DNA from: Planctomycetia bacterium
GTDB taxonomy: Bacteria; Planctomycetota; Planctomycetia; Gemmatales; Gemmataceae
Reading direction: 5' to 3'
Assembly: GCA_005772955.1 (NCBI GenBank)
Contig: SXID01000082.1
Location: 1-37,055 of the forward strand
DNA length: 37,055 bases
Positions 11,354-26,920 of this stretch are shown one piece after another. Under the pieces are notes generated by a model that saw nothing but the letters and a program-made list of their open reading frames with translations, did no database searches and was not told the origin of the DNA. A program made the position numbers and the translations under genes. Within the stretch, counting starts at the first letter, position 1, and the number at the start of each line of letters is the position of its first letter.

Positions 11354-11430
11354 TTGCTACACGACAAGTCGCACGTCAGAAACCTGCACAGTTGAGGTCT
11401 TCGACTTTGCGACTTGTCACGTAGCAATCA
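11351..11430. terminator. Bidirectional hairpin carrying both converging stop codons
   Basis: The arms 11351-11373 and 11408-11430 match as reverse complements at 21 of 23 positions. The left arm begins with the TGA of the plus-strand DUF1501 gene and the right arm ends with the TCA (TGA on the minus strand) of the GT2 gene. The 34-base loop has no gene. No T-tract follows, so Rho-independent termination is plausible but not certain. Confidence 0.75.
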
Positions 11431-12498
11431 ATACCGAAAGATGCCGAGGCGGTACATGCGGTTGTGAAACACGTGCCACGCGCGGTATCTCCGCAATCCG
11501 GCCTGGATTTCGAGGTCCGTCACGTTCCCGCCGTGAACACGCTGCCGGAGTCGCCCCATCTCTTCCACCCCGTTGCTGGTCACCACATTCATCGTTTTGG
11601 ACGAGGTGTGGAGACGGAACGCACCGAGGAACCGCGGCAAGCGAACCATCTTCGCGCCAGCCGCCTGGAACCGGAGGAGCAGATCCCAGTCCATCGCGAA
11701 TCGGAAACTCTCGTCGATGCCGCCGACCTTGTCCCAGATGCGGCGCCGCCAGAACATCGTTTCCTGCGGGATGTAGTCTGCCCACTTCAGCATCTCGTCG
11801 TCGTGGCGGGGCAGCACCCAACGCCCGATTTCATAGCCCACTTTGTCGATGAGGACGCGGTGCCCGTACACCACGTCCACGTCCGGGTGGCTCTCAAAGT
11901 ATTTCGCGACGGCGTGCAGCGCCCCAGATAAGAGCAGGTCGTCCGAGTTCAGGTACCCCATAATTTCGCCGGTCGTGCCGGCGAGACCGAGGTTGATCGC
12001 TTGGGACTGGCCGTTATCCTTGCGCGACTCGCACCGGTGCAGCCGATCGCGATACCACTCGAGTACCTGTTGGGTGCTGTCGGTGGATCCCCCGTCCTGC
12101 ACGACGTATTCGAGTCGCGGGTACTCCTGACCGAGAACGCTCCGGATGGTCTGCTCCAGAAACACACCCTGGTTGAACGACGGGGTGGCTATGGAGATGA
12201 CCGGCGGGTTCTTGAGCGTCGGCTTGCGATGATACCATGAGGGCACGACAACCGGCTTGGGTACGGCGTCGAAGTCCAGTTTGCCGATCACCACGCGCAA
12301 CCCCAAGATCGTTTTGATCTGGTGTCGGATCCAGTACTTCAGCGGGATCCGCGGGCGAATCTGTTCCTTCAACTGGATCAGTTCACGATGGAGCGAGTTC
12401 ACTTGGCGTGAGAGGGTCTGTACCCGGTTCATCATCCCGACGACGGTGGGATAGTCCAGTACGGCATCTGGATTGGTGTTCGTCGTATCCGCGTCCAT
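11428..12498 (-). CDS. GT2 family glycosyltransferase with N-terminal coiled-coil-like extension
   Basis: This 356-aa protein has a ~95-residue extension whose residues 17-48 (MMNRVQTLSRQVNSLHREL) look like a short coiled coil. A GT-A domain follows: ISIATPSFNQGVFLEQTIRSVL from residue 101, QDGGSTDST near 135, and the nucleotide/metal-binding NSDD at 184-187. A downstream ED-like region reads ESFRFAMDWDLLLRF. GT2 enzymes transfer a sugar from a nucleotide sugar; the donor and acceptor cannot be read from sequence. A strong AAGGAG lies about 4 bases before the ATG. It is the last gene of the polysaccharide locus and converges on the DUF1501 gene. Confidence 0.93.
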   Translation of the reverse strand: MDADTTNTNPDAVLDYPTVVGMMNRVQTLSRQVNSLHRELIQLKEQIRPRIPLKYWIRHQIKTILGLRVVIGKLDFDAVPKPVVVPSWYHRKPTLKNPPVISIATPSFNQGVFLEQTIRSVLGQEYPRLEYVVQDGGSTDSTQQVLEWYRDRLHRCESRKDNGQSQAINLGLAGTTGEIMGYLNSDDLLLSGALHAVAKYFESHPDVDVVYGHRVLIDKVGYEIGRWVLPRHDDEMLKWADYIPQETMFWRRRIWDKVGGIDESFRFAMDWDLLLRFQAAGAKMVRLPRFLGAFRLHTSSKTMNVVTSNGVEEMGRLRQRVHGGNVTDLEIQAGLRRYRAWHVFHNRMYRLGIFRY

Positions 12499-12530: not shown

Positions 12531-13717
<1,187 letters not shown>

Positions 13718-13735: not shown

Positions 13736-14440
13736 TCAGGCGGCCCGCTTCACCTGGTTGGCCTGGACTGCCTGTTCCCAGGCGCGAAACTCGGTCATGA
13801 ACTGGGCCACGGCCTCGTCCGTCTTCGGGTGCGCGCACATCTGCGGGAAGAACTTCGGCGGCACGGTGAGGATGTGCGCGCCGGCCTGGATCGCCTCGTT
13901 CACGTCCGCCAGGTGCCGGATACTTCCCACAATGATCTCGCTGTCCAGGCCACGACGGTCGAGTGACTCGCGGGTTTGGCTGACGACGCTACCGGCGTCG
14001 TACCCGATGTCGCGAATGCGGCCCCAGAACAGGCTCACGTACTTGGCCCCTGCGCTCGCGGCCATGACTGCTTGGTTGTAGGACATGCAGCAGGTGCAGT
14101 TCACCGGCACGTTGCGGCGAGCCAGTTGCGCGATCACCTTCAGTTCGTTCCAGCCGATCGGTATCTTGATGTTCAGGTACGGGTAGTCCCCGAACTCGTT
14201 GACGAAGTGCTCGGCCTCGTCAGCCATCTTCGCGGGGTCGGCGGTGTTAACCTCCACGCTCAGTGGGATCTTCGCGTCGTGCTTGATGAGCGCGTCGATC
14301 ATCGAGCGGATGTGAACGCCGAAGTCGGTGCAACCGGACCGCGCGACGAGCAACGGGTTGGTGGTCACGCCCGACGGGAACCCGCGTTCCAGGCACGTTT
14401 CCAGTTCCTTCACATCGGCGGTATCAACGAACAGTTTCAT
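13736..14440 (-). CDS. Transaldolase, small TalC/FSA-type subfamily
   Basis: This 234-aa (beta/alpha)8 enzyme of the transaldolase/fructose-6-phosphate aldolase family is of usual length for the small subgroup. Visible residues include Asp6, Asn28 in GVTTNP, and the Schiff-base Lys92 in NIKIP. Two positions distinguish activities in this family: Glu63 (LSVEV) and Phe138 (SLFWGRI) are transaldolase-type, where FSA has Gln59 and Tyr131. So it likely moves a dihydroxyacetone unit between fructose 6-phosphate and erythrose 4-phosphate, giving sedoheptulose 7-phosphate. That product is the substrate of the GmhA-like enzyme two genes upstream, which suggests a local supply role (inference). The ATG at 14440 gives the family start MKLFVDTAD; the open frame continues upstream to 14512. 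Confidence 0.9.
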   Translation of the reverse strand: MKLFVDTADVKELETCLERGFPSGVTTNPLLVARSGCTDFGVHIRSMIDALIKHDAKIPLSVEVNTADPAKMADEAEHFVNEFGDYPYLNIKIPIGWNELKVIAQLARRNVPVNCTCCMSYNQAVMAASAGAKYVSLFWGRIRDIGYDAGSVVSQTRESLDRRGLDSEIIVGSIRHLADVNEAIQAGAHILTVPPKFFPQMCAHPKTDEAVAQFMTEFRAWEQAVQANQVKRAA

Positions 14441-14459
14441 CGTCGGTCCCCAGAGTAGT

Positions 14460-14523
14460 AGGCACGCTCCGTGTGCCGTTGTTACTTCCCAGCCCGCACA
14501 GCGACGGCACACGGAGTGTGCCT
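14460..14523. repeat. 20-bp inverted repeat, each arm itself palindromic
   Basis: The arms 14460-14479 and 14504-14523 match as reverse complements at 19 of 20 positions. Each arm contains GGCAC-x-C-TCC-GTGTGCC, itself a palindrome around TCC. The core CACGCTCCG(C/T)GTG is shared with the element at 20981-21081. It fills most of the 96-bp spacer between the gmhB-like gene and the transaldolase gene. Confidence 0.85.
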
Positions 14524-14536
14524 GTTACTTTGAAGT

Positions 14537-15097
14537 TCACGCAGCCGAGCGCCCAGCGAACTCGGCCGCCACGGTCGCCAGGATCCAGTCCACGGCTCCA
14601 CGAATATCAGCCGCTTGGTGGTCTGGGCTGCACCGTTCCGGCTGGCTGAACGGCGTCTCGATCAGCACGCCCCGACACCCGGCGGCGTGCGCGGCGGCGA
14701 TGTCGGACCACCGGTCTCCGATCAGAAACCCAGTGGTCAGTTCCAGGTTCCATTTCTCCTCCGCCGCGAGCAGCAACCCCGGCTTCGGCTTGCGGCAGGT
14801 ACACTTGTCGGCGTTGTCGTGGTAGCACGCGAACACGTCGAGCAGCGGGAGTTCCGCGTGCATCTTCGCGTTGATCTCTTCGACGGCATCGCGCGTCTGC
14901 TTGCCGCGTGTCACGTCCGGTTGGTTCGTCACAACAACCAGCGCGAACCCGGCGGCACGCAACCGCGTGAGTGCTTCCGGCACGCCGGGGAGCAGTTCGA
15001 GTTCCGCGACGCTCATCGGCGGGCGTGTGGTGCCGCCTTCGGGGAAAGCCCGGTTGAGCACCCCGTCGCGGTCCAGGAACACCACCCGTTGCGTCAT
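14537..15097 (-). CDS. gmhB: D-glycero-D-manno-heptose-1,7-bisphosphate phosphatase-like HAD protein
   Basis: This 186-aa HAD phosphatase has the DxDGVLN motif (nucleophile Asp9, acid/base Asp11), VVTNQPDV (motif II), and GDRWSDIAAA (motif IV). Cys91, His93, Cys99 and Cys101 match the C-x-H...C-x-C zinc site of GmhB, although the loop between the pairs is shorter than in E. coli. GmhB removes the 7-phosphate of heptose 1,7-bisphosphate in the cytoplasm. Its neighbours GmhA, HddC and HddA support the GDP-heptose branch. GGGAG lies about 7 bases before the ATG. Histidinol-phosphate phosphatase is the main alternative in this family, made less likely by context. Confidence 0.87.
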   Translation of the reverse strand: MTQRVVFLDRDGVLNRAFPEGGTTRPPMSVAELELLPGVPEALTRLRAAGFALVVVTNQPDVTRGKQTRDAVEEINAKMHAELPLLDVFACYHDNADKCTCRKPKPGLLLAAEEKWNLELTTGFLIGDRWSDIAAAHAAGCRGVLIETPFSQPERCSPDHQAADIRGAVDWILATVAAEFAGRSAA

Positions 15098-15115
15098 CGC
15101 GTTCTCCCAGATGCT

Positions 15116-15132
15116 AAGCCGCGAAGCGGCTT
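15116..15132. repeat. Stop-codon palindrome AAGCCGC-GAA-GCGGCTT
   Basis: A perfect 7-bp stem with a 3-base loop lies between the gmhA and gmhB genes. Read on the minus strand, the gmhA stop and palindrome form TGA-AGCCGC-NNN-GCGGCTT, so the stop overlaps the stem. It is one of five elements in the window sharing the GCCGC/GCGGC core. Confidence 0.8.
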
Positions 15133-15743
15133 CACGCCGCCTTCTTGGTCGCCTCGGATTCCCATTTGGTCGCGGCGGACTTGAGCGATGGGTGTGTCAC
15201 GAACAGGTGCCACACAACCGCCTGAAACGCCTCCGCGTGCGGGGTCACATGCGCGGCGTTCACCGTCGGCACGATCACGCACGCATCCGCGACCTTCGCG
15301 GTGTAACCGCCGTCGCGGCCCACGATGCCGCACACCGTCGCGCCCACTTTCTTCGCGTGTTGGACCGCGCGAACGAGGTTTGGGCTGACGTTGCGTTCCA
15401 GGTCACCGCCGCCGACGGAGAACACGAGAATGCCGTCCTTGTCGTTCAACCGGCTGCCGCGAAGCCACTCGACGAACACCGTTTCCCAACCTTCGTCGTT
15501 GGTGCGTGCGGTGAGTTCGGACACGTTGTCCGTGGGTGCATACGTCTCGATGCCCGCGATCTTGCGGAAATCGTTGACAGCGTGCGAGGCGTTCGCCGCG
15601 CTGCCTCCGACGCCGAGAACGAACAGGCGGCCGCCGCGCCCGCGCACGTTCGCGAGCGCGGCCACGACCTTGTCGATGGCGCCGGTGTCTAACTTGGCGA
15701 GGATCTCGCTAGCTTCGGCGAGGAACTGCTGCGTGAAGGACAT
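15132..15743 (-). CDS. gmhA: Sedoheptulose 7-phosphate isomerase-like SIS protein
   Basis: This 203-aa protein has a single SIS domain with the phosphosugar loop GVGGSAANASHA (Ser48), and a second sugar-phosphate loop FSVGGGDLERN. GmhA isomerises sedoheptulose 7-phosphate to D-glycero-D-manno-heptose 7-phosphate. Relative to E. coli GmhA, the catalytic Glu65 position is Asp58 (AVNDFRK), and the C-terminal His180 equivalent appears to be His179. This is a divergent subgroup, so a related phosphosugar isomerase cannot be ruled out, but the adjoining HddA, HddC and GmhB genes make GmhA the best reading. GGAG lies 9 bases before the ATG at 15743; the frame extends upstream into the hddC gene without a better start. 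Confidence 0.82.
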   Translation of the reverse strand: MSFTQQFLAEASEILAKLDTGAIDKVVAALANVRGRGGRLFVLGVGGSAANASHAVNDFRKIAGIETYAPTDNVSELTARTNDEGWETVFVEWLRGSRLNDKDGILVFSVGGGDLERNVSPNLVRAVQHAKKVGATVCGIVGRDGGYTAKVADACVIVPTVNAAHVTPHAEAFQAVVWHLFVTHPSLKSAATKWESEATKKAA

Positions 15744-15768
15744 TCGAGCGACTCCGTTTACTTTTCCT

Positions 15769-15784
15769 AAGCCGCAAGCGGCTT
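15769..15784. repeat. Palindrome AAGCCGC-AA-GCGGCTT after hddC-like gene
   Basis: A perfect 7-bp stem with a 2-base loop lies 2 bases past the TAA of the hddC-like gene, within the 43-bp gap before the gmhA start. It has the same sequence as the element at 17719 on the opposite strand. Its short loop and lack of a T-run make it more like a REP element or mRNA-stabilising hairpin than a classical terminator. Confidence 0.8.
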
Positions 15785-15786
15785 GG

Positions 15787-16500
15787 TTACCCCGCGCGGC
15801 GCATGACGAACTCTTCCGCTTCGCGCAGGCCGGCGGGCGAGCCAATCTCGTAGAACCGGTTCGTCACCTCGAAGCCGACCATTTCGCCACTCGCGACAAG
15901 CGCGCTGTACAGTTCCGCGAGGTCGCACGGCTGACCCGCCGGGATACGCTCAATCGCGGCCCGACGCAACAGCGACAGTCCGTAGTCGATGTGCGTCATG
16001 TCCGGGGTCGCGTCCTGCTTGCTGTACCGCAAAAGCCGCCCGTTGTGGAAGACCACGTTGCTCGTGTCGAAACTGTTCTCATTGTGAAATACGGTCATCA
16101 GTCCGAGTGCATTGTGCGGCAACCGCGTGAAAGCGGACGCGTAACTCACGTCGAGGATCGAGTCGCCGTAAAGCACGAAGCACCCGTCGCCAACGAGAGG
16201 CAGCGCCCGCCGCACTGCGCCGCCGGTGCCGCGGAGCGTCTCGCCGTCGTCGGAATACCGCACGCGAAGTCCGAACCTCGCGCCGTCGCCAACGTACTCG
16301 CGCAACTGGTCGGCGAAGTGGCCAACGCACATCACGACTTCGCGAATACCCTGCTCGTGCAACTCTTCGAGTTGGTGGTCGATGAACGGGCGCCCCGCGA
16401 GCGGCACCAGCGCCTTTGGGATGGTCTTCGTGACCTCGCCCAACCGCGTGGCCTTGCCGCCGGCGAGGATCAGAACGGGCGTCGAAGCGAGATCCTTCAC
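15787..16500 (-). CDS. hddC: D-glycero-alpha-D-manno-heptose 1-phosphate guanylyltransferase-like protein
   Basis: This 237-aa nucleotidyltransferase has the signature LAGGKATRLGEVTKTIPKAL (12-31), GTGGAVRRAL, and the metal-binding LYGDSILD. The length and short C-terminus fit HddC/WcbM-type enzymes that make GDP-D-glycero-alpha-D-manno-heptose from the 1-phosphate and GTP. The nucleotide cannot be read with certainty, so glucose- or mannose-1-phosphate transferases are alternatives; position between HddA and GmhA argues for HddC. The start is a GTG at 16500, with GAGG 8 bases upstream, and no in-frame ATG comes earlier. It ends 2 bases before the palindrome at 15769. Confidence 0.85.
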   Translation of the reverse strand: MKDLASTPVLILAGGKATRLGEVTKTIPKALVPLAGRPFIDHQLEELHEQGIREVVMCVGHFADQLREYVGDGARFGLRVRYSDDGETLRGTGGAVRRALPLVGDGCFVLYGDSILDVSYASAFTRLPHNALGLMTVFHNENSFDTSNVVFHNGRLLRYSKQDATPDMTHIDYGLSLLRRAAIERIPAGQPCDLAELYSALVASGEMVGFEVTNRFYEIGSPAGLREAEEFVMRRAG

Positions 16501-16525
16501 GGTGATTGCCTCAAGCCACTACCTT

Positions 16526-16553
16526 GTGGCACAGACATTCCTGTCTGTGCCAC
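16526..16553. terminator. 12-bp perfect hairpin with TTCC loop
   Basis: GTGGCACAGACA (16526-16537) pairs perfectly with TGTCTGTGCCAC (16542-16553) around a 4-base loop. It sits in the 58-bp gap between the hddA-like and hddC-like genes. There is no T-tract on the downstream side of the minus strand. It may be an attenuator, processing site or dispersed repeat and need not be a full terminator. Confidence 0.65.
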
Positions 16554-16558
16554 GAAAC

Positions 16559-17584
16559 CTACGCCGCCCGGCGGATCGTCGGCCGCAGTACCGGCGACGG
16601 TGTCCCGCCGCTGACCACGCGCGTGCCCTCGAAGTCGAACCTAAATGGCACGTGCTGCAAGCCCGCCTCGGTCATCGCCTCGTTGAGTTGCTCGGCGTCT
16701 TCGGTGTAAAACATGAGGAACCCACCGCCGCCGGCGCCGATCAATTTGCCGCCCAGCCCGCCGTTCTTCATTCCGAGTTCGTACCACTCGTCGATCTTGG
16801 AGTTCGTCATGTTCCCGCTGCGTTTCTTCTTCGACCGCCAGTGAACGTTCATCAATTCCGCGAAGGCGCGCAGGTCGCCACCTTCCATCGCGTCCTTGCT
16901 CTTCAGCCCCAAGTCTTTGATGAAGTGCAGGTTGTCAATCATCGACTGATCGGCGGCCTTCGTTTTCGTGTCCTGTTCGCGCAGCACCTCGGACGCGGAT
17001 CGCGTGTAGCCGGTGAAGTACAACACGAGGTTCTGTTCGAGCCGACGCAGCGTGTCCGACGACGCACGCAGGGGCCAGTATTCGACGTGCCCGTCCGGGT
17101 GGAACCGGAAGCACGTCACCCCGCCGACCGCGGCGATGAACTGATCCTGCTTGCCGACCGGTTCTTTCAGCGTGTCGATCTCGATGTGGCACGCCTGCTC
17201 CGCGATCTCGGCGGCGCTCGGGTTGCCGTTGTGGAGCGCGTGCAGCCCGCGGAGCAACGCGGTGCAGAAGCTGCCCGACGACCCCAACCCAGTGCCCGCA
17301 GGGATGTCGGCCATCGCCGCGATCTCCAGCCCGTCGGCCGGGATACCGACTACCTGCATCGCGGTGCGCACGAGTGGGTGCTGAATGTCCTTCACGTCGG
17401 TGACGCGCTCGGACTGCGAGTACTTGAGGATCATCTCCGGCAGGATGGTCCGGTTGATGACGATATGAACGTGCCGGTCGATAGCGGCGGCCACGAGGAA
17501 GCCGGTGTGTTCGCGATAGTAGGACGGCAGGTCGGTTCCGCCCCCGCCGAGCGAGATGCGGAGTGGGCTGCGCGTGATGATCAT
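16559..17584 (-). CDS. hddA: D-glycero-alpha-D-manno-heptose 7-phosphate kinase-like GHMP kinase
   Basis: This 341-aa GHMP-family kinase has the N-terminal TRSPLRISLGGGGTDLPSYY, the ATP loop PAGTGLGSSGSFCTAL (95-110), and the C-terminal GGKLIGAGGGGFLMFY. HddA adds the 1-phosphate to heptose 7-phosphate, giving the alpha-1,7-bisphosphate that commits flux to GDP-heptose. Length and motifs fit HddA better than galactokinase or mevalonate kinase. GGAG lies about 8 bases before the ATG at 17584. The 132-bp spacer upstream shows no clear promoter. The protein ends in RRAA, like many in this locus. Confidence 0.88.
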   Translation of the reverse strand: MIITRSPLRISLGGGGTDLPSYYREHTGFLVAAAIDRHVHIVINRTILPEMILKYSQSERVTDVKDIQHPLVRTAMQVVGIPADGLEIAAMADIPAGTGLGSSGSFCTALLRGLHALHNGNPSAAEIAEQACHIEIDTLKEPVGKQDQFIAAVGGVTCFRFHPDGHVEYWPLRASSDTLRRLEQNLVLYFTGYTRSASEVLREQDTKTKAADQSMIDNLHFIKDLGLKSKDAMEGGDLRAFAELMNVHWRSKKKRSGNMTNSKIDEWYELGMKNGGLGGKLIGAGGGGFLMFYTEDAEQLNEAMTEAGLQHVPFRFDFEGTRVVSGGTPSPVLRPTIRRAA

Positions 17585-17716: not shown

Positions 17717-18718
17717 TCAAGCCGCTTGCGGCTTCGCGGGCTTAGACTGCGTGTACACTCGCGCCACCACATCGAGCGCCGCGACCGCGTCGCTCAGCGT
17801 TGCGCCCGGCCCGGCTTCGCCATTGGTCGCTCGCTCGAAGTCACGGAACTCGGCGTTCCACGAACCGTCTTCGCCGGGGTATTCCCAGATGGTCGTTTCT
17901 GGTGGCCCCATCGCAGGCAACATGCGGTAATACGCGAGCCGCTCGACGCCGTAGCTCCCGCCCAAGCCGTCGATCTGAAGTTTCCCAGTACGGCCGTAGA
18001 TTTCGAGGCAGAACAGGTTCTTCCACTCGGAGCAACTCGCGTGCAGCCACCCCACTTGCCCGCCGGTGTGGTGCGTGCAGACGAAGCCGTTGTCTTCGAC
18101 TGGCATATCCCAGAAGAATGTTGTTGCGAAGCCGCTCACGGCGGTCACGTCGCCGAGGAACCATCGCGTGAGGTCGATGAGGTGAACGCCCTGGTCGAGC
18201 AGTTCGCCGCCGCCCGCGAGCGCCGGGTCCGAGCGCCATTCGCGGTCGTAGCCCACGCGCCCGCCGTGGCCGTATCGCCCGCGCACAAACATCAGCGGGC
18301 CACACGCGCCTTCATCGACCAGCGTTCGAGCCTTCAGCAGCGCCGGATGGAAGCGGTGGTTGAAGCCGACGCGAACCGTCACGCCCATTGCCTTCGCAGC
18401 CGCTACCACGGGGCGCAGTTCGCTAGCCGATCTCGCCGCGGGCTTCTCCACCAGCACGTTCTTGCCGGCCTCGATCGCGCCGAGCGCGATCGCGGCGAGC
18501 GAATCGTTGATCGTGGCGACCACGACCGCGTCCGCATCATCCCGGCGCACGATCTCTTTCCAGTCGCCGCTCGACACGCAACCGGGGTAGCTATTCGCGA
18601 GCGCGGCGGCGCGTTCGGGAACCGCGTCCGCGGTCGCGACGACGCGATGTCCCAGCGCGGCGATGGACTTCGCGCGCTTGCCACCGATCAGCCCACAACC
18701 CACGATCGCTACGCGCAC
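17717..18718 (-). CDS. Gfo/Idh/MocA-family NAD(P)-dependent oxidoreductase
   Basis: This 333-aa protein has an N-terminal Rossmann fold (VAIVGCGLIGG) and the family EKP motif (E91-K92-P93, in VEKPAARS). A C-terminal alpha/beta domain contains GGGELLDQGVHLIDLTRW, where Asp and His are typical catalytic residues. Such enzymes oxidise or reduce sugar hydroxyl/keto groups; a nucleotide-sugar C3 or C2 oxidation is possible here but unproven. The GTG at 18718 is preferred over one at 18727 because GGAGG lies 9 bases before it and directly abuts the other. It overlaps the upstream SDR gene by 10 bases, implying coupling. Its last codons (K-P-Q-A-A) are encoded by a palindrome. Confidence 0.88.
   Translation of the reverse strand: MRVAIVGCGLIGGKRAKSIAALGHRVVATADAVPERAAALANSYPGCVSSGDWKEIVRRDDADAVVVATINDSLAAIALGAIEAGKNVLVEKPAARSASELRPVVAAAKAMGVTVRVGFNHRFHPALLKARTLVDEGACGPLMFVRGRYGHGGRVGYDREWRSDPALAGGGELLDQGVHLIDLTRWFLGDVTAVSGFATTFFWDMPVEDNGFVCTHHTGGQVGWLHASCSEWKNLFCLEIYGRTGKLQIDGLGGSYGVERLAYYRMLPAMGPPETTIWEYPGEDGSWNAEFRDFERATNGEAGPGATLSDAVAALDVVARVYTQSKPAKPQAA
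17719..17734. repeat. Palindrome AAGCCGC-TT-GCGGCTT inside a gene's 3' end
   Basis: A perfect 7-bp stem with a 2-base loop spans the last five codons and the first base of the TGA of the Gfo/Idh gene. Read on the minus strand it is the same 16-mer as at 15769. Here the repeat is translated, adding K-P-Q-A-A to the protein. Confidence 0.8.
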
Positions 18719-19596
18719 TTCTTCCACCCTCCGCGATCTTCCGGTGTGATGCGGCGCAAGGTGTAGACGTCTCCGCGTGCGAGTTCGTCTTTCTTATCAG
18801 GCAGGTTCGCCCAGTCATCCCACACCGCGCTGAGAAGCCGACCGGAGATGCCGTCGGACGCGGCCGACGCGAGGAACACGCTGAGTTCCGCGCCCCGGTC
18901 CAACGGCGTGCCGCCGGAGTCGCGTGTCTTGGTCATCTTGTCGAAGAACGCAGCCCCGACCTTTTCCGGTCCGGCCGCGATGAGGTCGTCCATGAATCGC
19001 GTGTTCAGCGCGCCGGGCGCGATCGCGTTCACGTCGATGCCGGCACCGCGAGTTTCCTCTGCGAGCGTCTCCGTGAACCGCACCACGGCGGCCTTCGACG
19101 CGGCGTAGGAGCTGATGCGCGGCAGCGGCGCGGTCGCGCCACCGCCGGACAGGTTGATGACCTTGCCGTAGTTCGCGCGACGCATGTGCGGCAGGAATGC
19201 GCGGCACATGAGAATGGTACCGAACAGGTTGATCTCGATCGCCTTGACCCACTCCGACCAGTCGTTGTCTTCGATGAGTCCGAACGGCCCGTACACGCCG
19301 GCGTTGTTGACCAACACGCACGGGTTGTCGAGTTCCGCTAACGCCTGAACCGCGGTGGCGTTGCAATCGCGCTCGTTGGACACGTCCGCGATGCGACCGA
19401 GCACCTGTTGGTCTGGGAGTGTGGCGAGAGGGGTGAGTTCCGCGACGGTTCGCGTCAGTAACTCTGCGCCCCGGGCGGTGAGAAGAACACTGGCCCCGGC
19501 TCGCACGAAGTGTTCCGCGATGGTGCGCCCCAGTCCCTGATTCGCCCCGGTGATGACGGCCGACCGGCCGGCGAGCGGCTTGCCCCGCGAGTCCAT
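18709..19596 (-). CDS. Classical short-chain dehydrogenase/reductase
   Basis: This 295-aa SDR has TGANQGLG cofactor loop (16-23), NNAG (97-100), Ser150, and the YAASK catalytic pair (Y164, K168). The C-terminus is ~40 residues longer than usual and ends in a polar stretch without known motif. Substrate unknown; in this locus it may act on a sugar or nucleotide sugar, but SDRs of this kind also act on small alcohols and ketones. GGAG lies ~9 bases before the ATG. A candidate promoter is at 19635-19664. It overlaps the downstream Gfo/Idh gene. Confidence 0.87.
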   Translation of the reverse strand: MDSRGKPLAGRSAVITGANQGLGRTIAEHFVRAGASVLLTARGAELLTRTVAELTPLATLPDQQVLGRIADVSNERDCNATAVQALAELDNPCVLVNNAGVYGPFGLIEDNDWSEWVKAIEINLFGTILMCRAFLPHMRRANYGKVINLSGGGATAPLPRISSYAASKAAVVRFTETLAEETRGAGIDVNAIAPGALNTRFMDDLIAAGPEKVGAAFFDKMTKTRDSGGTPLDRGAELSVFLASAASDGISGRLLSAVWDDWANLPDKKDELARGDVYTLRRITPEDRGGWKKCA

Positions 19597-19678: not shown

Positions 19679-19694
19679 AAGCCGCTCGCGGCTT
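19679..19694. repeat. Stop-codon palindrome AAGCCGC-TC-GCGGCTT
   Basis: A perfect 7-bp stem with a 2-base loop directly after the dehydrogenase-like gene; the final A of its TGA is the first base of the stem on the minus strand. The sequence around the stop (GGCGTGAAGCCGC) is the same as at the gmhA stop near 15132. Confidence 0.8.
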
Positions 19695-20962
19695 CACGCC
19701 GCGCGCCCAGCGGCCACGTACGCAATCGTCGGATCGTTCGCCAGGCCCGCGGAGAGGAAGTGCGTGGGGTCAATCACCTTCGCCTTCTTCATCGCGCCGC
19801 GCACTTGCGCCGGGGTGAGCGTGCGGTACTCTGGCCATGGGGTCGCGAGTACGCTCACGTCGGCGCCGCGCATCGCGCCCTCGGCGGTGTCCGCGAGTTC
19901 CACGCCGCGAAGCTCGGCGGCGTCGCGATTCGCCGCCGGGTCGTGCGCGCGAACCTTCACGCCGCGCGTGAGCAACCACTGGCACAGTTCGACCGACCCG
20001 GAGCGCCGCAACGTGTCCGTGCCCGGCTTGTACGTGAGGCCCAGCACCGCGACCGTCGCGCCAGCGGGGACGCCGGAAAGCTGATCGCGGAGCCAGTTCT
20101 TCTGGCACTCGTTGCTCGCCCGCACGCCGCTAAAGAGGTGTGCCGGCCGGGCGTTTTCCGCAGCGAGGTCGAGCAGGAAGCCGATGTCGCGGGCGAGCGT
20201 GCCGCCCGCGAACGCGGTCCCCGGCGAGAGGTACGCTTTCGGCCCGATGCGCTGCTCGCTCTTGAGGCCGCGCTCCACTTCTTTCGCGTCCGCGCCCACG
20301 ACTTCGCAGATGCGCGCGAGTTCGTTGATGAACGCGACCGACGTGGCGAGGAACGCGTTGACCGCGTGCTTCGTCATCTCCGCGGACGCGACCGACATCC
20401 ACACGCGATCGCCGCCGAACGGCGCGAGGAGTTCCGTTAACTTCGCGCGGTCGCTCGCGTCACACCCCAACACGACGCGGTCCGGTTTGCGGAAGCAATC
20501 GAGCGCCTGCCCGAGCCGCAGGTTCTCCGGCGAGCACGCGACACTCACGCCGCGCGCGGCCCAATCCGTTGCGAGTTTCTTTCCGAAGCCCACTGGCACC
20601 TGCGACGAGACCAGCACGAGCGTGCCGGGCGTCAGGTGCGGGGCGATGTCTTCGAGCCGGTCGCGGACCCACTTCACGTCGGCGTTATCGCTGCTGTCTA
20701 CCGGCGTGTCGAAGCACACCCACACGACTTCCGCCGAAGGGATTGCAGTGGCTTCGTCGCTAGTAAAGCGGAGCCGGTTCGCATGCTGTTGTTCGGTGAG
20801 GAGCGCCGCGAGTCCGGGTTCGTCCACTGCGGGCTTGTTCGCGCGCAGGTTCGCGATGGTAACCGCATCGGGATCGAGGCCGACAACGGTGTGGCCGCCG
20901 TCCGCGAGGCACGCGGCCGTCACGCTGCCGAGGTGCCACAGGCCGTACACGGTGACGCGCAT
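19694..20962 (-). CDS. UDP-glucose/GDP-mannose dehydrogenase-family protein lacking the catalytic Cys
   Basis: This 422-aa protein has the three domains of the UGD family: N-terminal Rossmann (VTVYGLWHLGSVTAACLA), central helical domain with Lys198 and Asn202 conserved (TKHAVNAFLATSVAFINE), and C-terminal domain (LGLTYKPGTDTLRRSGS). The catalytic cysteine loop, normally GGxCLPKD, reads AGGTLARD with Thr255 at the Cys position. The usual PEFLREG loop is PENLRLG. Without the cysteine the thioester step of four-electron oxidation to a uronate cannot proceed as known, so it may do a single two-electron oxidation, or act otherwise. GGAAG lies ~6 bases before the ATG. The protein ends in GRAA. Confidence 0.88.
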   Translation of the reverse strand: MRVTVYGLWHLGSVTAACLADGGHTVVGLDPDAVTIANLRANKPAVDEPGLAALLTEQQHANRLRFTSDEATAIPSAEVVWVCFDTPVDSSDNADVKWVRDRLEDIAPHLTPGTLVLVSSQVPVGFGKKLATDWAARGVSVACSPENLRLGQALDCFRKPDRVVLGCDASDRAKLTELLAPFGGDRVWMSVASAEMTKHAVNAFLATSVAFINELARICEVVGADAKEVERGLKSEQRIGPKAYLSPGTAFAGGTLARDIGFLLDLAAENARPAHLFSGVRASNECQKNWLRDQLSGVPAGATVAVLGLTYKPGTDTLRRSGSVELCQWLLTRGVKVRAHDPAANRDAAELRGVELADTAEGAMRGADVSVLATPWPEYRTLTPAQVRGAMKKAKVIDPTHFLSAGLANDPTIAYVAAGRAA

Positions 20963-20980
20963 GAGGAACTTCCGTGTGTG

Positions 20981-21081
20981 GTCATCACGCTCCGCGTGAT
21001 GTCGCCTTTGCGGTTCAGGTGCGCTTCGAGCAAACGTTAATCGCTTGCCAGGGTCGCGGACATCACGCGGAGCGTGATGAC
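20981..21081. repeat. 23-bp perfect inverted repeat, arms palindromic
   Basis: The arms 20981-21003 and 21059-21081 are perfect reverse complements with a 55-base loop. Each arm contains ATCACGC-TCC-GCGTGAT, itself a palindrome. The core CACGCTCCG-C-GTG is nearly that of the element at 14460-14523. It fills most of the 133-bp spacer between the epimerase-like and dehydrogenase-like genes. Confidence 0.9.
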
Positions 21082-21095
21082 TACTATGAAGACAA

Positions 21096-22058
21096 TCACG
21101 CCGCGTGGCGCGACTCGATCACCCACGGGTTCGCGCGAAGGTAGTCGAGCGTGCGAATCACCGCGTCGCGGATGCTCAGCTTCTGCCTCCAGCCGAACGA
21201 TTGAAGTTTCTTCGTGTCGAGGAAAATGAACGGGCTGTCGCCGATCCAGCCACGCGCCCCGCCGGTGTGATTCACCTTCGGCGTGAGGCCGAGGCGGTCG
21301 CAGATCCAACCGAGCGAGTTGTCCACCTGGCAGTATTCGTCCGCGCCGAGGTTCACCACGTTCACCGGTTGCTCGGCCTTCTCCACCACGGTGAAGATCG
21401 CGTCGATGCAGTCCTGAACGTACAGGTAGCTCTTGCGCTGTTTGCCGTCGCCCAGCACCTCAATGCTGTTCGGATTGGCAAGCAGTTTCGCGTAGAAGTC
21501 GAACACGTGACCGTGCGTGTATCGCTCACCGAGGATCGACACGAACCGGAAGATGAACGCCTGAAACCCGAAGCCGGTCGCGTACGCGGAGATCAAGCCT
21601 TCGCCCGCGACCTTGCTCGCGGCGTACAGACTCGTCTGTACCGGGAACGGGGCGTTCTCCGGCGTCGGGAACACTTCCGCTTCGCCGTACACCGAACCGG
21701 TGGACGAGAAGCCGATACGCTTCACGCCGTTCTGGCGCATCGCTTCGAGCACGTTGAACGTCGCGATTGTGTTCTGTTGCAGGTCGCGGTCCGGGTGGTT
21801 CGTGCCGAAACGAACGTCAGCATTTGCCGCGAGGTGAAACACGAAGTCGTGCCCCGCGACCGCTCGCGTCAGCGCGGGCTTGTCGAGCAAGTCGCCCTCG
21901 ACGAGCGCGAATCGCGTGTTCTTTTGCGCGTCCGCGAGGAACTGCCGCTGCCCGGTACTGAAGTTATCGAACGCGGTGACGTGGTGCCCATCCGCGAGCA
22001 GGCGGTCCACCAAGTTGCTCCCAATGAACCCGGCCCCGCCAGTGACGAAGTAGCGCAT
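21096..22058 (-). CDS. NAD-dependent sugar-nucleotide epimerase (extended SDR)
   Basis: This 320-aa protein has GGAGFIG (7-13) and a YAASK pair in [11 protein letters not shown]. The upstream SSTGSVYGE matches epimerases more than 4,6-dehydratases, which carry T-D-E there. UDP-hexose 4-epimerase-like activity is the best general reading; exact sugar unknown. The C-terminal part contains [20 protein letters not shown], a usual closing segment for this family. GGAGG lies 8 bases before the ATG at 22058; the frame extends upstream over the methyltransferase gene, but that portion is a shadow. It ends in RHAA. Confidence 0.9.
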
Positions 22059-22081
22059 GTCGTGAACCTCCGTGTTGTGAA

Positions 22082-22831
22082 TCACGCCGCGGCGCGGGTG
22101 TCGAGCGCGTTGAGCGCCCGTGCGCGGGGCTTCAGCGTCAGCCCGATGACCAGATTGCACCACGTCGCGGGGATGAAGCGGAACGGGAAGAACCGGCGGT
22201 GTTCGACCGTGAAGTACGGCGCGAGTTCTTCCTGAATCTCGTGCGGCCGGTTCACGTGCTCGCGCTCGATGAACCACTTGTAGGGCTGCTTGTACCGGCG
22301 CTCGAAGATGCGCTGCGCGGAGATGCGGCGGGCCATCGTGTACGCCAGACTGCCCTCGCACGGGATCACGATCGAGAACGTCCCCCTGGCCTTATCGCAA
22401 AGGCGGTACATCTCGCGCGCGGCGGCTGGCAGGTTCGGCAAGTGTTCGAGCACGTGAATCGCGAGGACGCGGTCGAAGTACCCGTCCGGGTGCGGGAGTC
22501 TCGCCTGGCAATCACCGGTCACGGTCTGGATCTTCGGAAACCGTTCACGAATCGCCGCGCTCATGTTCTCGCGTAGTTCGAGCGCGTGGTACGCGCGTTC
22601 CTGCTCCGGCGTGAGCTTCTCGTACTTCAGGTGCTCGCCGATCCCGGCACCGATTTCGAGCGTGCGGTGGAACTCGGCCGGCGCGTGCGCCACCGGGTAC
22701 GAGTGGTTGAACCGGTCGATACGCCCGAACTTGTTGGGCAGCACCTCGTGCCAGTGCTTCATGAAGTCGTCGCTGATGCGCTGCTGCTCCGGCGTGAGCG
22801 GCGGGAACGTCTTCGGCCACGTCGTGGGCAT
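22082..22831 (-). CDS. Class I SAM-dependent methyltransferase
   Basis: This 249-aa protein has the SAM-binding motif LEIGAGIGEHL (58-68), a GDCQARLP segment and AIHVLEHLPNLP, the motif around the acidic post-II region typical of methyltransferase-11-like enzymes. Acceptor unknown; in this locus a sugar or lipid-linked glycan is likely. The C-terminal region (PFRFIPATWCNLVIGLTLKP) is hydrophobic enough to associate with membrane. GGAGG lies 8 bases before the ATG. The end of the protein is RAAA. Confidence 0.88.
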   Translation of the reverse strand: MPTTWPKTFPPLTPEQQRISDDFMKHWHEVLPNKFGRIDRFNHSYPVAHAPAEFHRTLEIGAGIGEHLKYEKLTPEQERAYHALELRENMSAAIRERFPKIQTVTGDCQARLPHPDGYFDRVLAIHVLEHLPNLPAAAREMYRLCDKARGTFSIVIPCEGSLAYTMARRISAQRIFERRYKQPYKWFIEREHVNRPHEIQEELAPYFTVEHRRFFPFRFIPATWCNLVIGLTLKPRARALNALDTRAAA

Positions 22832-22859: not shown

Positions 22860-23606
22860 TTACGCCCGCGGCGCGGGCACGGGGAGTGCCGCGCGGCGCC
22901 CGCCGAACCGGATGCGGAACAGATCCTTCAGGTTCTTCCAGTTGCCGGAGACAAGTTTCAGTCGCGTGTCTCCGTCGTCCTGCCACGCGACGCCGACTTC
23001 CTTCACCTTGTAACCGGCTCGCGCGGCCAGCGAGAGAATCTCGACATCGAACATGTAGCCGTCGATGCGCTGACGCGTGAACAGGTCGCGGGCGACCTCG
23101 GCGCGGAAGAACTTGAACCCGCACTGCGTGTCCTGGATCCCGCGCAACCCAACAAGAGGCCGCATCACCATGCCGAACCCCTTCGATCCGATGCGGCGAT
23201 ACCACGGCTGACGCACGCGGATGTTCGCCCCAGCCGCGGCACGCGAACCGATCACGATGTCGTAGTCCTGCTCGAACCACGGCATCACCTTCTCGATCTC
23301 GTCGATGGGCACCTTGTAGTCGGCGTCGAGGAACCCGACCATTTCGCCGGTCGCGGCCAGCACGCCTTCCCGCACGCCCCGGCCCTTGCCGCGGCGCTCA
23401 GGCGCGCCCATCACGCGCACCGGCATCTCGCTGACGAGCGCCGCAGCGGCTTCGCGTGTGCCGTCGGTGCCGTCGGCGCTGACGATCAACTCGTAGGTGA
23501 CGCCGCGCGGTTCGAGGTACTCACGGATCGCGCGAAGGGTGCGCTGGATCGTCGCGACCTCGTTGAACGCGGGGATCACCAAACTCAACTGCGGGGACGC
23601 GCTCAT
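22860..23606 (-). CDS. Polyprenyl-phosphate glycosyltransferase-like GT2 (ALG5/DPM type)
   Basis: This 248-aa GT2 has LSLVIPAFNEVATIQRTL at the N-terminus, the DAD metal motif (94-96) in GFLDADYKVP, and IQDTQCGFKFFR, typical of dolichyl-phosphate glucosyl/mannosyltransferase relatives. It has no membrane segments. Such enzymes load a hexose from a nucleotide sugar onto polyprenyl phosphate at the inner face of the membrane. The gene upstream encodes a large multi-pass protein that could use this lipid-linked donor. AGGAG lies 9 bases before the ATG. Confidence 0.9.
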   Translation of the reverse strand: MSASPQLSLVIPAFNEVATIQRTLRAIREYLEPRGVTYELIVSADGTDGTREAAAALVSEMPVRVMGAPERRGKGRGVREGVLAATGEMVGFLDADYKVPIDEIEKVMPWFEQDYDIVIGSRAAAGANIRVRQPWYRRIGSKGFGMVMRPLVGLRGIQDTQCGFKFFRAEVARDLFTRQRIDGYMFDVEILSLAARAGYKVKEVGVAWQDDGDTRLKLVSGNWKNLKDLFRIRFGGRRAALPVPAPRA

Positions 23607-23638: not shown

Positions 23639-26600
23639 TTACGGTTTCGCCGGTTCAAAGCCGACGAACCGGAGGAGCGCGCCGACCACCCGGCCGTCGG
23701 GCGGCGGAAGCGCTTGCGTGTTCGAGAATCGGCATTCCAGCCGGTACGATTGAGCCGACTTACCGGCGGGCGCGCGCACCTCGAAGTCGCCAGTGCCCAG
23801 AACCCGCTTCGCAACCTCAACGCCGTCAAGCAGCAACGTCAACTCTGTCCGGTACGCGGTGTCGCCGGTGATCTCGGGAATCTGCCCGCGAACAACCGCG
23901 TCGCGGTCGGGTCCGGTCGGCAACAACAGGGTCGTGAAGGTCTTCTCGGTCCACGCATCGGTATAAATCCCCATCGCCTCCGCCTTCGGGTGGCTCAGGT
24001 CAGCCGGGAACGCATCGAGCTTCTCCGGGGACCGCGACTTCGCCTCGTCCTTCGGTTCAAAGCCGACGAACTTGATGTGCGCGACTGTTCGACGACCGTC
24101 GGGTGCGGGAAGTAGTTGATCCTCCGAGAACCGAACCTCGATCCATCGCGGGCCAGCGACCGCACCACAGGGGACGCGAATCTCGAAGTCCCCGGTCTTC
24201 AGCATTCGTTTCTCGACTGGCTTTCCGTCAATCAGAACCGTTGCTTCGGTTCGGAATCCGGCCCCGTCCGCCGACACCTGCGGGATCATTCCACGAATCA
24301 CCGCTTCCTGGCCCGATTCCGGTTGCGTCAGCCGCACCTTGAAGTTCTTCCCAACCCAACCCTCTTCGTAGAGGCCGGAGTATTCCAGGTGCGGGTGTGT
24401 CAGGTCGTCGGGGAACTTCGTGATCTGCTGAGGGGGCCGGAACGCAGCGTACTCCTCTTCCGAGAGAACCGAAATGTCGCGGACGTGCCCCGTGAGGTAG
24501 CGCCGGTCGCGCGGCAGGTCCACGCCCCACAGTTTCTCGACCGCATTCAGGTTGTTGGCATTGCGACTCGGATCGCCGAAGTCGAGAGCGAGGTACCGAC
24601 CGGTGCCGATGGCCTGCGGCGCCAGCGGCGGTGAGATCAGGCGAGCCGACCCCGCCCCAACCGAGGCAAAGTCGACGCGACGGTCCCCGACCACTCGAAT
24701 CGGCGGCACCACCCGTTTCGCCGGGTCGGAGTAATACGACGCAGTAGCCGACACCAGCACACGGACGCGGGGCGCGGGATTGATCACGTCGAAGACCAGC
24801 GCACGGCCCACGCCGGCCATCGACTGCTTGGGAAACGCGGGGTCGGACTGCAACTGGTACATCCCGATTTCGGTCGGCGTCTTCATGCCGTAAAAGTGCT
24901 GCCTCGCGCCGCTCACGTCGCAGAATACGACGAAGTTGCGAACGTCTGTCAGGCGATCGCAGACAATCGATGCGCCAGACTCCAGGTATCGCGAACGGTT
25001 GAACGCAGACAGTGGCCCAATCGTTGACACCACCAGCACCCGCTCTGGCGGGCCGGCCCCCGTCTCCGCCGGAGCATTCATCAATTGGTGCATGACCTCC
25101 CCGGAGTCCGGGTCGTAGATGCTCGGCCCGATGCCCCGCCGGTGCCGAGCCAGATACGCCACCCGCAGCGCAGTCAGGGATTGCTCCCACTCGGGCGGAA
25201 CCCGCGGCGCGGTCTGATAGATGGTGAACAGGGCGCGAACCTGATGCTCGAACGGGTCTTGGCCCAATTGGCCGGTGGGGACGCCCCGCACCTCGGTCGC
25301 CATCAGCTTCCGCAGCACCACGTTCTCACCGGCCAGCAACACCTGATCGACGTCCCCGGCGGCGGTCTGCCGAGCGTACTCGGAACGGAACTGCGCCAGC
25401 GCGCGGCGGGGCGTCGCGGCCGCCACCTCCACCCGGCCTTCTTTCCCGCGGCTCTGATCCACGTACCAGAACTGCACACGCGCGTTCTGCCCCGCGACAA
25501 CGGCCAGCACCCCCGCGGCGCCGACCGCGACCCACCGCGACCGCCGAGAGAGCACCCACGCAGCCACAGCCACCCACACGAACGGCTGAGCGAACATGGC
25601 GATCTTGTACAGGCCGAACGCACCCCGCTGGACCAACAGCACCGCGGTCATGGCTCCCAGCACAGCGAGGACAGCCGCGAACCCCTGCCGCCGGCGGAAC
25701 CCGGCGACCGCCGGGACGACCAACCCAGCCAGGAGCAAATGGCCAGCAACGACACACACGTTCTGAACCGCCGCCTCCTCCGGGCCGGCGAGTGGGAGCA
25801 GGCCCCAGACCACCGCCGCGCCCCGCGGGGTTAGAAAGAACGGGAAGACCTCGGCGTGGACGGCCGAACCGCCTTGGGTCGCTTGGATGGCGAGGAACGT
25901 CACGCTCCCGTACAGGTACACCGGCACCACTGCGGCCGCCACCGCGAGGGCAATCGCGGCGTGCCCCGGATACCGCCGGTCGAGCCGCCGACGGGCCAGG
26001 TCGAACAGCCCGAGGACCACGCACCCGCCGACCAGCACCGGGATCACCTCTGGGTAGAACACCGTCTGCCCGGCGAACACCACCCCACACACGACCGCCC
26101 GGCCGAGGAACTGTCGCGCCCGCAACCGGCGGAACCGGGCTGTCACCAGCGCCAGTGCGGTACACAACAACGCCAGCCCGCTCGCCTGAGCGATGAGTTG
26201 TTGGACTACCCCATAGGTCGTCGCAGCCGACACCGCCAGTAGCCCGCCCGCGAGCACCCCGACGGCGCGGCGCCGGGTTCCGGCGACCGCCAGCCCGGAC
26301 GCCGCCGCGACCAGCGCCAGGTTCAACCCAATGAGCACCGGCATGAACACCTGCTGAGCCGCGAGACCGGTCCAGACCATGGTCGTCGCGAGCAGTACCT
26401 CGCACCCCGGCCGCACCTCTTGAACCACATAGGAGAACCACGACTGCGTCTGGTCGCGACCGCCGTCGAGGTCGTCCATCGTCGGCACCTGCGCGTACCC
26501 GTGATCGCGGTACCCGGTCGCGATCATGCAGTAGTTCGCCATGTCGTCGTTGCCGTTGGCCACCCAGTCGAACCCGTACCCGAACAGCGGCCACGCGGTC

Positions 26601-26920
26601 AGCCCAAACGCGCCGACGAGTACTACTGCGAACGCCCGCGAACGCTTCCACAGGCGCCGCGCGTGCACTGCGGTCGGCCGCGCGCGCCACAACACGGCCA
26701 GCGACAGGAGGAGCAACGAACCTCCAACGGGTACCGCCGAAAGGCGCACCGGCACGCCGAACCGCACCAAAATGTAAGTGGGAACAACGAGGGTCGCGAA
26801 CCCGACCGTCGGCGCGAACAGCAACGTCGGCAGCGCCCACCGGAACCGACCGAGTTTCAGCACCGCGAGGCCGATAACCGCCCAGCCGATGAATAGTGCC
26901 CACGTGAGTAGCACGGCCAA
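23639..26920 (-). CDS. 1093-aa multi-pass membrane protein with duplicated C-terminal domain, possible GT-C
   Basis: The first ~520 residues contain roughly a dozen hydrophobic spans, with an acidic pair D125-D126 (NGNDDMANY) in an early non-membrane loop. GT-C glycosyltransferases have such acidic residues in their first external loop, so it could transfer a sugar from a polyprenyl-phosphate donor, but I do not recognise a specific family. Residues ~520-830 are soluble without a motif. Residues 835-956 and 970-1090 are two copies of one domain, both running from (K/A)FP(D/A)DL(T/S)HP to FVGFEP. The start is a TTG with GGAAGG about 6 bases upstream; a GTG two codons later is possible. It is the first gene of the locus. 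Confidence 0.8.
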   Translation of the reverse strand: MAVLLTWALFIGWAVIGLAVLKLGRFRWALPTLLFAPTVGFATLVVPTYILVRFGVPVRLSAVPVGGSLLLLSLAVLWRARPTAVHARRLWKRSRAFAVVLVGAFGLTAWPLFGYGFDWVANGNDDMANYCMIATGYRDHGYAQVPTMDDLDGGRDQTQSWFSYVVQEVRPGCEVLLATTMVWTGLAAQQVFMPVLIGLNLALVAAASGLAVAGTRRRAVGVLAGGLLAVSAATTYGVVQQLIAQASGLALLCTALALVTARFRRLRARQFLGRAVVCGVVFAGQTVFYPEVIPVLVGGCVVLGLFDLARRRLDRRYPGHAAIALAVAAAVVPVYLYGSVTFLAIQATQGGSAVHAEVFPFFLTPRGAAVVWGLLPLAGPEEAAVQNVCVVAGHLLLAGLVVPAVAGFRRRQGFAAVLAVLGAMTAVLLVQRGAFGLYKIAMFAQPFVWVAVAAWVLSRRSRWVAVGAAGVLAVVAGQNARVQFWYVDQSRGKEGRVEVAAATPRRALAQFRSEYARQTAAGDVDQVLLAGENVVLRKLMATEVRGVPTGQLGQDPFEHQVRALFTIYQTAPRVPPEWEQSLTALRVAYLARHRRGIGPSIYDPDSGEVMHQLMNAPAETGAGPPERVLVVSTIGPLSAFNRSRYLESGASIVCDRLTDVRNFVVFCDVSGARQHFYGMKTPTEIGMYQLQSDPAFPKQSMAGVGRALVFDVINPAPRVRVLVSATASYYSDPAKRVVPPIRVVGDRRVDFASVGAGSARLISPPLAPQAIGTGRYLALDFGDPSRNANNLNAVEKLWGVDLPRDRRYLTGHVRDISVLSEEEYAAFRPPQQITKFPDDLTHPHLEYSGLYEEGWVGKNFKVRLTQPESGQEAVIRGMIPQVSADGAGFRTEATVLIDGKPVEKRMLKTGDFEIRVPCGAVAGPRWIEVRFSEDQLLPAPDGRRTVAHIKFVGFEPKDEAKSRSPEKLDAFPADLSHPKAEAMGIYTDAWTEKTFTTLLLPTGPDRDAVVRGQIPEITGDTAYRTELTLLLDGVEVAKRVLGTGDFEVRAPAGKSAQSYRLECRFSNTQALPPPDGRVVGALLRFVGFEPAKP

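Follow-up and report, generated by a model that had tools for sequence, protein, structure and literature searches.

A transaldolase-containing gene cassette in Gemmataceae and other phyla, possibly directed to GDP-octose for surface polysaccharide

The window considered here is a stretch of 37,055 nucleotides from a Planctomycetia bacterium of the family Gemmataceae (GenBank assembly GCA_005772955.1, contig SXID01000082.1), and all of the genes described in this paragraph lie on its minus strand. In transcription order an HddA-like GHMP sugar kinase (16559..17584; Pfam GHMP_kinases), an HddC-like sugar-1-phosphate nucleotidyltransferase (15787..16500; PF00483, NTP_transferase), a GmhA-like SIS isomerase belonging to a separate subfamily (15132..15743; PF13580, SIS_2) and a GmhB-like HAD phosphatase (14537..15097; Pfam HAD hydrolase families) are followed by a transaldolase (13736..14440; PF00923, TAL_FSA, 1.4e-36; ATG at 14440), with gaps of 58, 43, 34 and 96 bp. 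Coordinates and Pfam matches confirm this arrangement, which had been put forward in an earlier sequence-only reading together with a span of 13736-17584 for the cassette. The five genes are indeed found there; the block is larger, however, as three further genes are conserved alongside, encoding a nucleotide-sugar dehydrogenase of the UGD family that lacks the catalytic cysteine (19694..20962; PF03721/00984/03720; motif GGTLARD), an SDR oxidoreductase (18709..19596; PF00106) and a Gfo/Idh/MocA-family oxidoreductase (17717..18727; PF01408, PF22725) whose gene the SDR gene overlaps, both of these oxidoreductases being kept together with the cassette. The context is that of a polysaccharide locus, with two family 2 glycosyltransferases (11428..12498 and 22860..23606; PF00535) and an NAD-dependent epimerase/dehydratase (21096..22361; PF01370) whose domain begins at residue 105 and whose true start is probably downstream. 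A GDP-fucose-synthase-like NAD epimerase/reductase, EPI (12531..13586, start probably near 13481), scores 291.3 of 500 bits with NF047922; genes of this type are present in some cassettes only, with close copies in L003, L009 and L010 (77-93%) and in L065 (86%). An enzyme with such likeness to GDP-fucose synthase could equally act on GDP-heptose.

Judged by curated profiles, the names HddA, HddC, GmhA and GmhB are valid at the family level only, since the NCBIfam equivalog scores of all four window proteins lie below cut-off (153.9 of 600 bits for HddA, NF049969; 76.9 of 300 for HddC; 49.3 of 209.45 for GmhA, TIGR00441; 119.1 of 178 for GmhB, NF006506); an assignment as canonical heptose enzymes by cut-off was rejected on these scores. 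The GmhB-like protein does exceed the cut-offs of two broad HAD models, TIGR01656 and TIGR01662. MurU is a uridylyltransferase and provides the best NCBIfam match of the HddC-like protein (114.7 bits); because this score is higher than that for HddC, and both are below cut-off, GTP is only a candidate substrate of the enzyme. Solved relatives of the HddA-like kinase include a putative sugar kinase (4usm) and the heptose phosphate kinases 3k85 and 4n3o.

These relationships bear on the reading of the locus as a GDP-heptose cassette, in which the transaldolase would supply sedoheptulose 7-phosphate (S7P) locally and the UGD, Gfo/Idh/MocA and SDR enzymes would modify GDP-heptose, a reading that we regard as possible and on balance doubtful. 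Transaldolases produce S7P in ordinary metabolism, every step would be workable for a C7 sugar, and heptose-pathway enzymes are among the best curated or solved relatives of the kinase, the isomerase and the phosphatase. The missed equivalog cut-offs argue against it, with the qualification that our controls do not establish how easily a true HddA passes: of 14 control genomes, 11 have matches to the HddA model and none has a match above its cut-off, from which it follows that weak matches are common and nothing more, while the GmhA model exceeds its cut-off in 2 of the 14. A second argument comes from the isomerase: where E. coli GmhA has E65 and T120, it has other residues, namely Asp and Val, which are present in 23/23 aligned isomerases. 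The alignment comprises 21 members of the subfamily and two isomerases of another GmhA type (L021, L024) against one canonical GmhA only, and since the two other-type enzymes share both changes, these do not single out a C8 substrate. Thus the four families of the proposed GDP-heptose cassette are present, whereas GDP-heptose itself is unsecured, with equivalog cut-offs missed and key residues of the isomerase different.

The transaldolase falls into a subgroup of its own within the TalC/FSA family, referred to below as type A, that emerges with clade support of 100/99 in a tree in which bootstrap is unsettled, long branches meet and the TIGR02134 members are all from cassettes. Residues corresponding to E. 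coli TalB E96, K132, F178, R181, S226 and R228 are found in 25/25 aligned subgroup rows and D17, T33, T34 and N35 in 24 of them, the exception being the frame-shifted L024, whose two segments are not in one frame and whose last 230 residues represent it in the tree; the L022 transaldolase lies outside these counts, since its extended reading went beyond a stop codon. At the E96 and F178 positions FsaA has Q59 and Y131. We take these positions to have the catalytic roles assigned to them in TalB (Schiff-base Lys, phosphate-site Arg/Ser, and Glu96 and Phe178 as against Gln59 and Tyr131 of FsaA), and a fructose-6-phosphate aldolase in place of a transaldolase was ruled out by Glu and Phe at TalB 96 and 178 with Lys and Arg/Ser kept. 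The window protein shares its Pfam family and the aligned catalytic lysine with both the staphylococcal-type transaldolases of TIGR02134 and the TalC/FSA proteins of TIGR00875, but reaches neither cut-off (70.2 of 281.95 for TIGR02134, 138.9 of 245.95 for TIGR00875). Other cassettes have a type B transaldolase, of which two members were scanned; both pass TIGR02134 (342.6 and 329.1 versus 281.95), and in L026 and L027 the identity of type B to type A is 27-32%. As to the acceptor, the sequence is compatible with either erythrose 4-phosphate (E4P) or ribose 5-phosphate (R5P).

A second PF00923 gene is located elsewhere in the window's own genome and in all 24 of the genomes tested (24 of 37; in G434 the match extends over no more than 167 of the 285 profile positions), so that the cassette transaldolase is an extra copy. 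Its presence counts against the GDP-heptose reading, as a transaldolase-family gene is already available there. The suggestion that the five proteins could work without drawing on the central pool is likewise unsupported, given this gene and the fact that fructose 6-phosphate (F6P), E4P and S7P are all central metabolites.

All eight genes occur together in the window and in L004, L019, L026, L027, L065, L067, L095 and L100, a set that takes in Planctomycetota, Chloroflexota, Rhizobium and Lawsonia, and Gemmata relatives and Chloroflexota share the gene order as well. Several of the Gemmata rows are near-copies of each other, and in the search across phyla at most 7 candidates were scored per genome; L062-L064, L066 and L069-L074 proved to be contigs already counted, leaving L065, L067, L068 and L075 as new. 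The long open frame at 23639-26920 of the window has no similarity to the long protein of the Lawsonia cassette (E 0.20). The type A subgroup comprises 22 of 23 loci, L025 (38%, a generic match) having been left out, and in 16 of these 22 loci outside the window the transaldolase has a GmhA-type isomerase no more than 2 kb away. In the sequence available, no GmhA gene is near in five, three of which end at a contig end less than 1.4 kb upstream while L020 and L023 do not; the L008 sequence ends 678 bases before its transaldolase, and the presence of an isomerase there cannot be judged. The expectation that the transaldolase belongs with the heptose-type genes is borne out by the 16 loci, and the outcome named beforehand as telling against it, a subgroup located mainly outside heptose loci, is not what was found.

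Eighteen further loci carry a member of the GmhA subfamily without a type A transaldolase. Eleven of them have another transaldolase within 2 kb (8 of type B, 3 of another type); in the remaining 7 none is nearby, and in three of those, L096-L098 from Gemmataceae, the isomerase stands without any other cassette gene. The possibility that the Lawsonia and Rhizobium cassettes are free of transaldolase was rejected, as these loci carry one of another family. In an isomerase tree that excludes L021 and L024 (another GmhA type) and the distant L023 match, L019 with its type A enzyme nests inside the type B loci L099/L100 (98/90 and 97/81). At the level of gene content and phylogeny it is supported that the transaldolase is a real member of the pathway, in a slot filled by different lineages. 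For a chance neighbour or passenger gene one could adduce the general mobility of polysaccharide genes and nothing further; with the cassette kept across phyla and several transaldolase lineages involved, this explanation was ruled out by recurrence and appears scarcely credible. Improbable as well, in our view, is a transaldolase that only adjusts the pentose-phosphate supply of the locus without a sugar-building step, comparable to the transketolase genes in some polysaccharide loci. The type A gene of L014, which comes downstream of a transketolase gene part, and the five members without a nearby GmhA gene would fit such a role, but the proximity of the isomerase in most type A loci and the occupation of the same slot by other transaldolases speak against it.

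The window UGD matches TIGR03026 over nearly its whole length and above the subfamily cut-off, yet the catalytic cysteine of UDP-glucose 6-dehydrogenase is replaced by Thr. The same replacement at E. coli Ugd C253 is observed in 8/8 aligned cassette UGDs, and among 14 readable motifs Thr occurs in 12, Asn in 2 and cysteine in none, 2 partial copies being unreadable. Uronic-acid formation was judged unlikely, since no readable copy retains the cysteine, and because of this loss the enzyme appears suited to forming a ketone and not a uronate.

Taken together, we lean towards a conserved cassette for GDP-octose destined for surface polysaccharide; on our analysis the product would be a nucleotide-activated higher sugar, most likely GDP-octose. 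We infer all substrates and products, as well as the nucleotide, of the scheme that follows. The transaldolase would pass three carbons of F6P (or S7P) on to an aldose phosphate, with R5P as the most likely acceptor, to give octulose 8-phosphate, which the GmhA-like isomerase would convert to the aldose 8-phosphate. The HddA-like kinase would then phosphorylate C1, the GmhB-like phosphatase would take off the terminal phosphate and the HddC-like enzyme would attach a nucleotide, probably GMP. Subsequently the cysteine-less UGD may oxidize a secondary alcohol to a ketone, with the Gfo/Idh/MocA enzyme and the SDR completing redox or epimerization chemistry much as LmbL and LmbZ/CcbZ do on GDP-octose in lincosamide biosynthesis; LmbL we take to be UGD-like and LmbZ to be Gfo/Idh/MocA-like. 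Tentatively, and with somewhat less than even confidence, we propose further that a lincosamide-like GDP-octose pathway is widely distributed (Gemmata, Chloroflexota, rhizobia, Lawsonia) as a module for surface polysaccharide, that its transaldolases are interchangeable and its cysteine-less UGD forms a ketone, that its product has eight carbons and is perhaps a keto- or 8-deoxy-octose, and that it may be ancestral to the antibiotic sugar genes. Should the product be an octose, aldol-extended eight-carbon sugars would be surface glycan units in several phyla, beyond the lincosamide antibiotics, their bearers including a Rhizobium that associates with plants and a pathogen of the pig gut, and an origin of the lincosamide sugar genes would be indicated along with a testable enzyme set. 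Should it be a heptose, the cassette would still be a route to heptose that includes an aldol step of its own, which is absent from the C. jejuni heptose scheme.

The C. jejuni capsule pathway is a homologous four-step set that starts from S7P and whose four enzymes are found in 23 serotypes; the modifying enzymes named in the abstract are dehydratases, epimerases, C4-reductases, mutases and a C4-dehydrogenase (PMC10680097). It differs from the window in that the four proteins here miss the equivalog cut-offs and in that the word transaldolase is absent from the main text of that paper, which again argues against GDP-heptose. Our literature searches returned no paper joining 'GDP-heptose' with 'transaldolase', nor one on the Lawsonia intracellularis plasmid with a transaldolase, and among the matches listed no title or abstract opening pointed to a GDP-heptose or polysaccharide locus with a transaldolase. 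The sequence-only reading had considered a dedicated transaldolase not to be established in such sets, but one was already known with LmbN, LmbP, LmbK and LmbO: in the 2015 table for lincomycin, LmbR (transaldolase), LmbN (C8 isomerase), LmbK (C8 phosphatase) and LmbO (guanylyltransferase) are given as confirmed and LmbP (kinase) as predicted (PMC4351081), and the passages on LmbR name F6P or S7P plus R5P as its substrates (PMC5854111). LmbM, LmbL, CcbZ and CcbS are described as leading from GDP-octose to GDP-lincosamide (PMC12945683). As in the window, a dedicated transaldolase is combined with an isomerase, a kinase, a phosphatase and a guanylyltransferase (a nucleotidyltransferase here); in the lincosamide pathway a C8 dehydrogenase and an oxidoreductase likewise assigned to C8 act afterwards (PMC4351081, Table 2; PMC12945683). 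The lincosamide genes, in contrast, form a Streptomyces antibiotic cluster that also has an aminotransferase and condensation machinery, whereas the window locus has glycosyltransferases and an extra SDR. No LmbS-type aminotransferase, and no Pfam match to any aminotransferase, was found among the 28 window proteins scanned, a subset of the open frames; a DegT gene is present in the related locus L015. None of the Lmb proteins was recognized among the matches listed in the plasmid searches, a minority of all records that did not include the two Streptomyces records counted, and the two systems are likened by enzyme steps rather than by sequence. On that basis the set of steps in the window resembles the lincomycin octose pathway more closely than the ordinary heptose pathway.

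The window, which comes from a 5.9 Mb genome and counts Gemmata among its nearest relatives, carries a block of sugar genes on its minus strand that encode, in order of transcription, a UGD-family dehydrogenase, an SDR, a Gfo/Idh/MocA oxidoreductase, an HddA-like kinase, an HddC-like nucleotidyltransferase, a GmhA-like isomerase, a GmhB-like phosphatase, a transaldolase, a GDP-fucose-synthase-like epimerase and a family 2 glycosyltransferase, with a further epimerase, a methyltransferase and a second glycosyltransferase upstream. The five genes from HddA to transaldolase that the sequence-only reading had grouped as a GDP-heptose cassette (13736-17584) lie exactly where it placed them, spaced by only 34-96 bp, with the start codon of the transaldolase at 14440. 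Pairs of REP-like inverted palindromes are found between the GmhB and transaldolase genes (14451-14532) and upstream of the UGD gene (20978-21084), with a short one between the HddA and HddC genes (16531-16549). A minus-strand open frame of 1093 residues (23639-26920) gave no Pfam match.

We are highly confident that the dedicated transaldolase is real, and five lines of evidence place it in the pathway: proximity to a GmhA gene, joint occurrence in family genomes, recurrence of the whole eight-gene set, exchange of the transaldolase within it, and a further family member elsewhere in the genome. Sequences of the window type form a single clade (26 rows, 100/99), retain the catalytic lysine and phosphate-site residues and share VNCTCCMSYNQA, invariant across 17 aligned members; at the aligned positions that we take to discriminate transaldolase from fructose-6-phosphate aldolase, 25/25 carry the transaldolase residues. 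The subgroup is rare, occurring in a phylum sample of 392 genomes solely in the window's own (439 bits; next best 186) and in 15/95 genomes of the family sample, 13 of these 15 within the genus. Outside the window the subgroup is represented by 22 loci (23 found minus one generic match). The window's GmhA subfamily lies within 2 kb of the transaldolase in 14 of them and another GmhA type in 2, which makes 16/22 loci with a GmhA nearby. No GmhA is nearby in five, and one more is cut by a contig end; of the five, L013, L014 and L017 run into the end of their contig no more than 1.4 kb upstream, and L020 and L023 are not so cut. At L014:67-1990, from a Rokubacteria MAG, part of a transketolase (pyrimidine-binding and C-terminal domains) stands with the window-type transaldolase directly behind it. 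Of the 15 family genomes that have the transaldolase, 14 fall among the 18 having the GmhA subfamily, and in the fifteenth (L071) the contig stops 674 bases upstream of the transaldolase. The full set of eight genes, UGD through transaldolase, is present in the window and at L004, L019, L026 (Lawsonia plasmid 3), L027 (a Rhizobium jaguaris plasmid), L065, L067, L095 and L100. At three Deltaproteobacteria loci (L015:1806-6305 and the similar L016 and L018) isomerase and transaldolase stand together; next in L015 come genes for a DegT aminotransferase and an E1-type dehydrogenase.

The transaldolase is swapped while the remaining cassette genes persist. The Lawsonia and Rhizobium transaldolases are 27-32% identical to that of the window, against 59-69% for the isomerases, and those of Lawsonia and L100 score over the curated TIGR02134 (staphylococcal transaldolase) cut-off. 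Eighteen more loci with the isomerase, 4 from Gemmataceae and 14 from Chloroflexota, include 11 with a transaldolase within 2 kb, 8 of staphylococcal type and 3 of other TalC-like kinds. The remaining 7 (L096-L098, L105, L106, L107, L109) have none nearby; at L096, L097 and L098 (Gemmataceae genomes G429, G430 and G392) the isomerase stands without other cassette genes in the DNA examined, and two of the seven genomes, those of L105 (shared with L020) and L107 (shared with L013), hold a window-type transaldolase elsewhere. On the isomerase tree L019, a window-type locus, is nested within staphylococcal-type loci (98/90 and 97/81). The cassette transaldolase is an extra copy: a further PF00923 gene, a putative transaldolase in a family that includes aldolases, lies elsewhere in 24/24 genomes searched, from a set of 37, and in the window's own.

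As for the four heptose-named proteins, their Pfam membership is clear, and none of them reaches its NCBIfam equivalog cut-off. Among control genomes 0/14 exceed the HddA cut-off and 2/14 that of GmhA (TIGR00441); the controls are thus uninformative on strictness and the missed cut-offs compatible with a plain GDP-heptose product. The HddC-like protein scores highest with MurU. In an alignment including one canonical GmhA, Asp and Val replace the key E. coli residues E65 and T120 in 23/23 cassette isomerases (21 of the window subfamily, 2 of the other type). The genome's second GmhA-family gene fits TIGR00441 better than the cassette copy (96.9 vs 49.5 bits), and its second HddA match is weaker (115.1 vs 148.6 bits).

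Plain GDP-heptose is a possible product that we would not favor, since a transaldolase supplying only sedoheptulose 7-phosphate (S7P), the start of the C. jejuni GDP-heptose pathway (PMC10680097), would probably duplicate what another gene can do. GDP-octose or a similar higher sugar seems somewhat the likelier product, and we infer acceptor, chain length and nucleotide alike. The UGD has lost its catalytic cysteine: where the motif can be read, in 14 copies, the residue is Thr in 12 and Asn in 2, and 2 partial copies are unreadable. Given the family's known mechanism it should stop at the two-electron stage, giving a ketone and no uronate, which fits a lincosamide-type octose. Near window-subfamily isomerases at L012 and L105 we find HldE-like fusions of PfkB and CTP_transf_like domains (L012:1761-3317, below the HldE cut-offs, and L105:13002-14744), while the DNA examined at these loci shows no pair of HddA and HddC genes; the nucleotide in these variants would then more likely be ADP or some other one. 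Directly after the HddC-like gene of the Lawsonia cassette lies a long unannotated protein of 1089 residues (L026:11696-14965), with no similarity to the 1093-residue frame of the window.

Lincosamide biosynthesis is a known system whose five-enzyme logic is exactly the same. There LmbR, a transaldolase, couples fructose 6-phosphate or S7P to ribose 5-phosphate (PMC5854111), LmbN isomerizes, the kinase is predicted to be LmbP, and LmbK and LmbO serve as C8 phosphatase and C8 guanylyltransferase (PMC4351081), and GDP-octose is converted to GDP-lincosamide via LmbM, LmbL, CcbZ and CcbS (PMC12945683); in the lmb cluster the genes form units lmbR-S-O-P-Z and lmbN-M-L (PMC7014725). A dedicated transaldolase in such a set, which had been thought new, is thus already known from lincosamides. 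Among the literature matches listed there is no counterpart to a polysaccharide cassette that is conserved, exchanges its transaldolase and has a UGD lacking the cysteine. No LmbS-type aminotransferase is found among the 28 window proteins scanned, and the likeness rests on gene content and logic, not phylogeny. If LmbL is UGD-like and LmbZ Gfo/Idh/MocA-like, as we take them to be, the cassette and the lincosamide pathway would have seven enzyme types in common.
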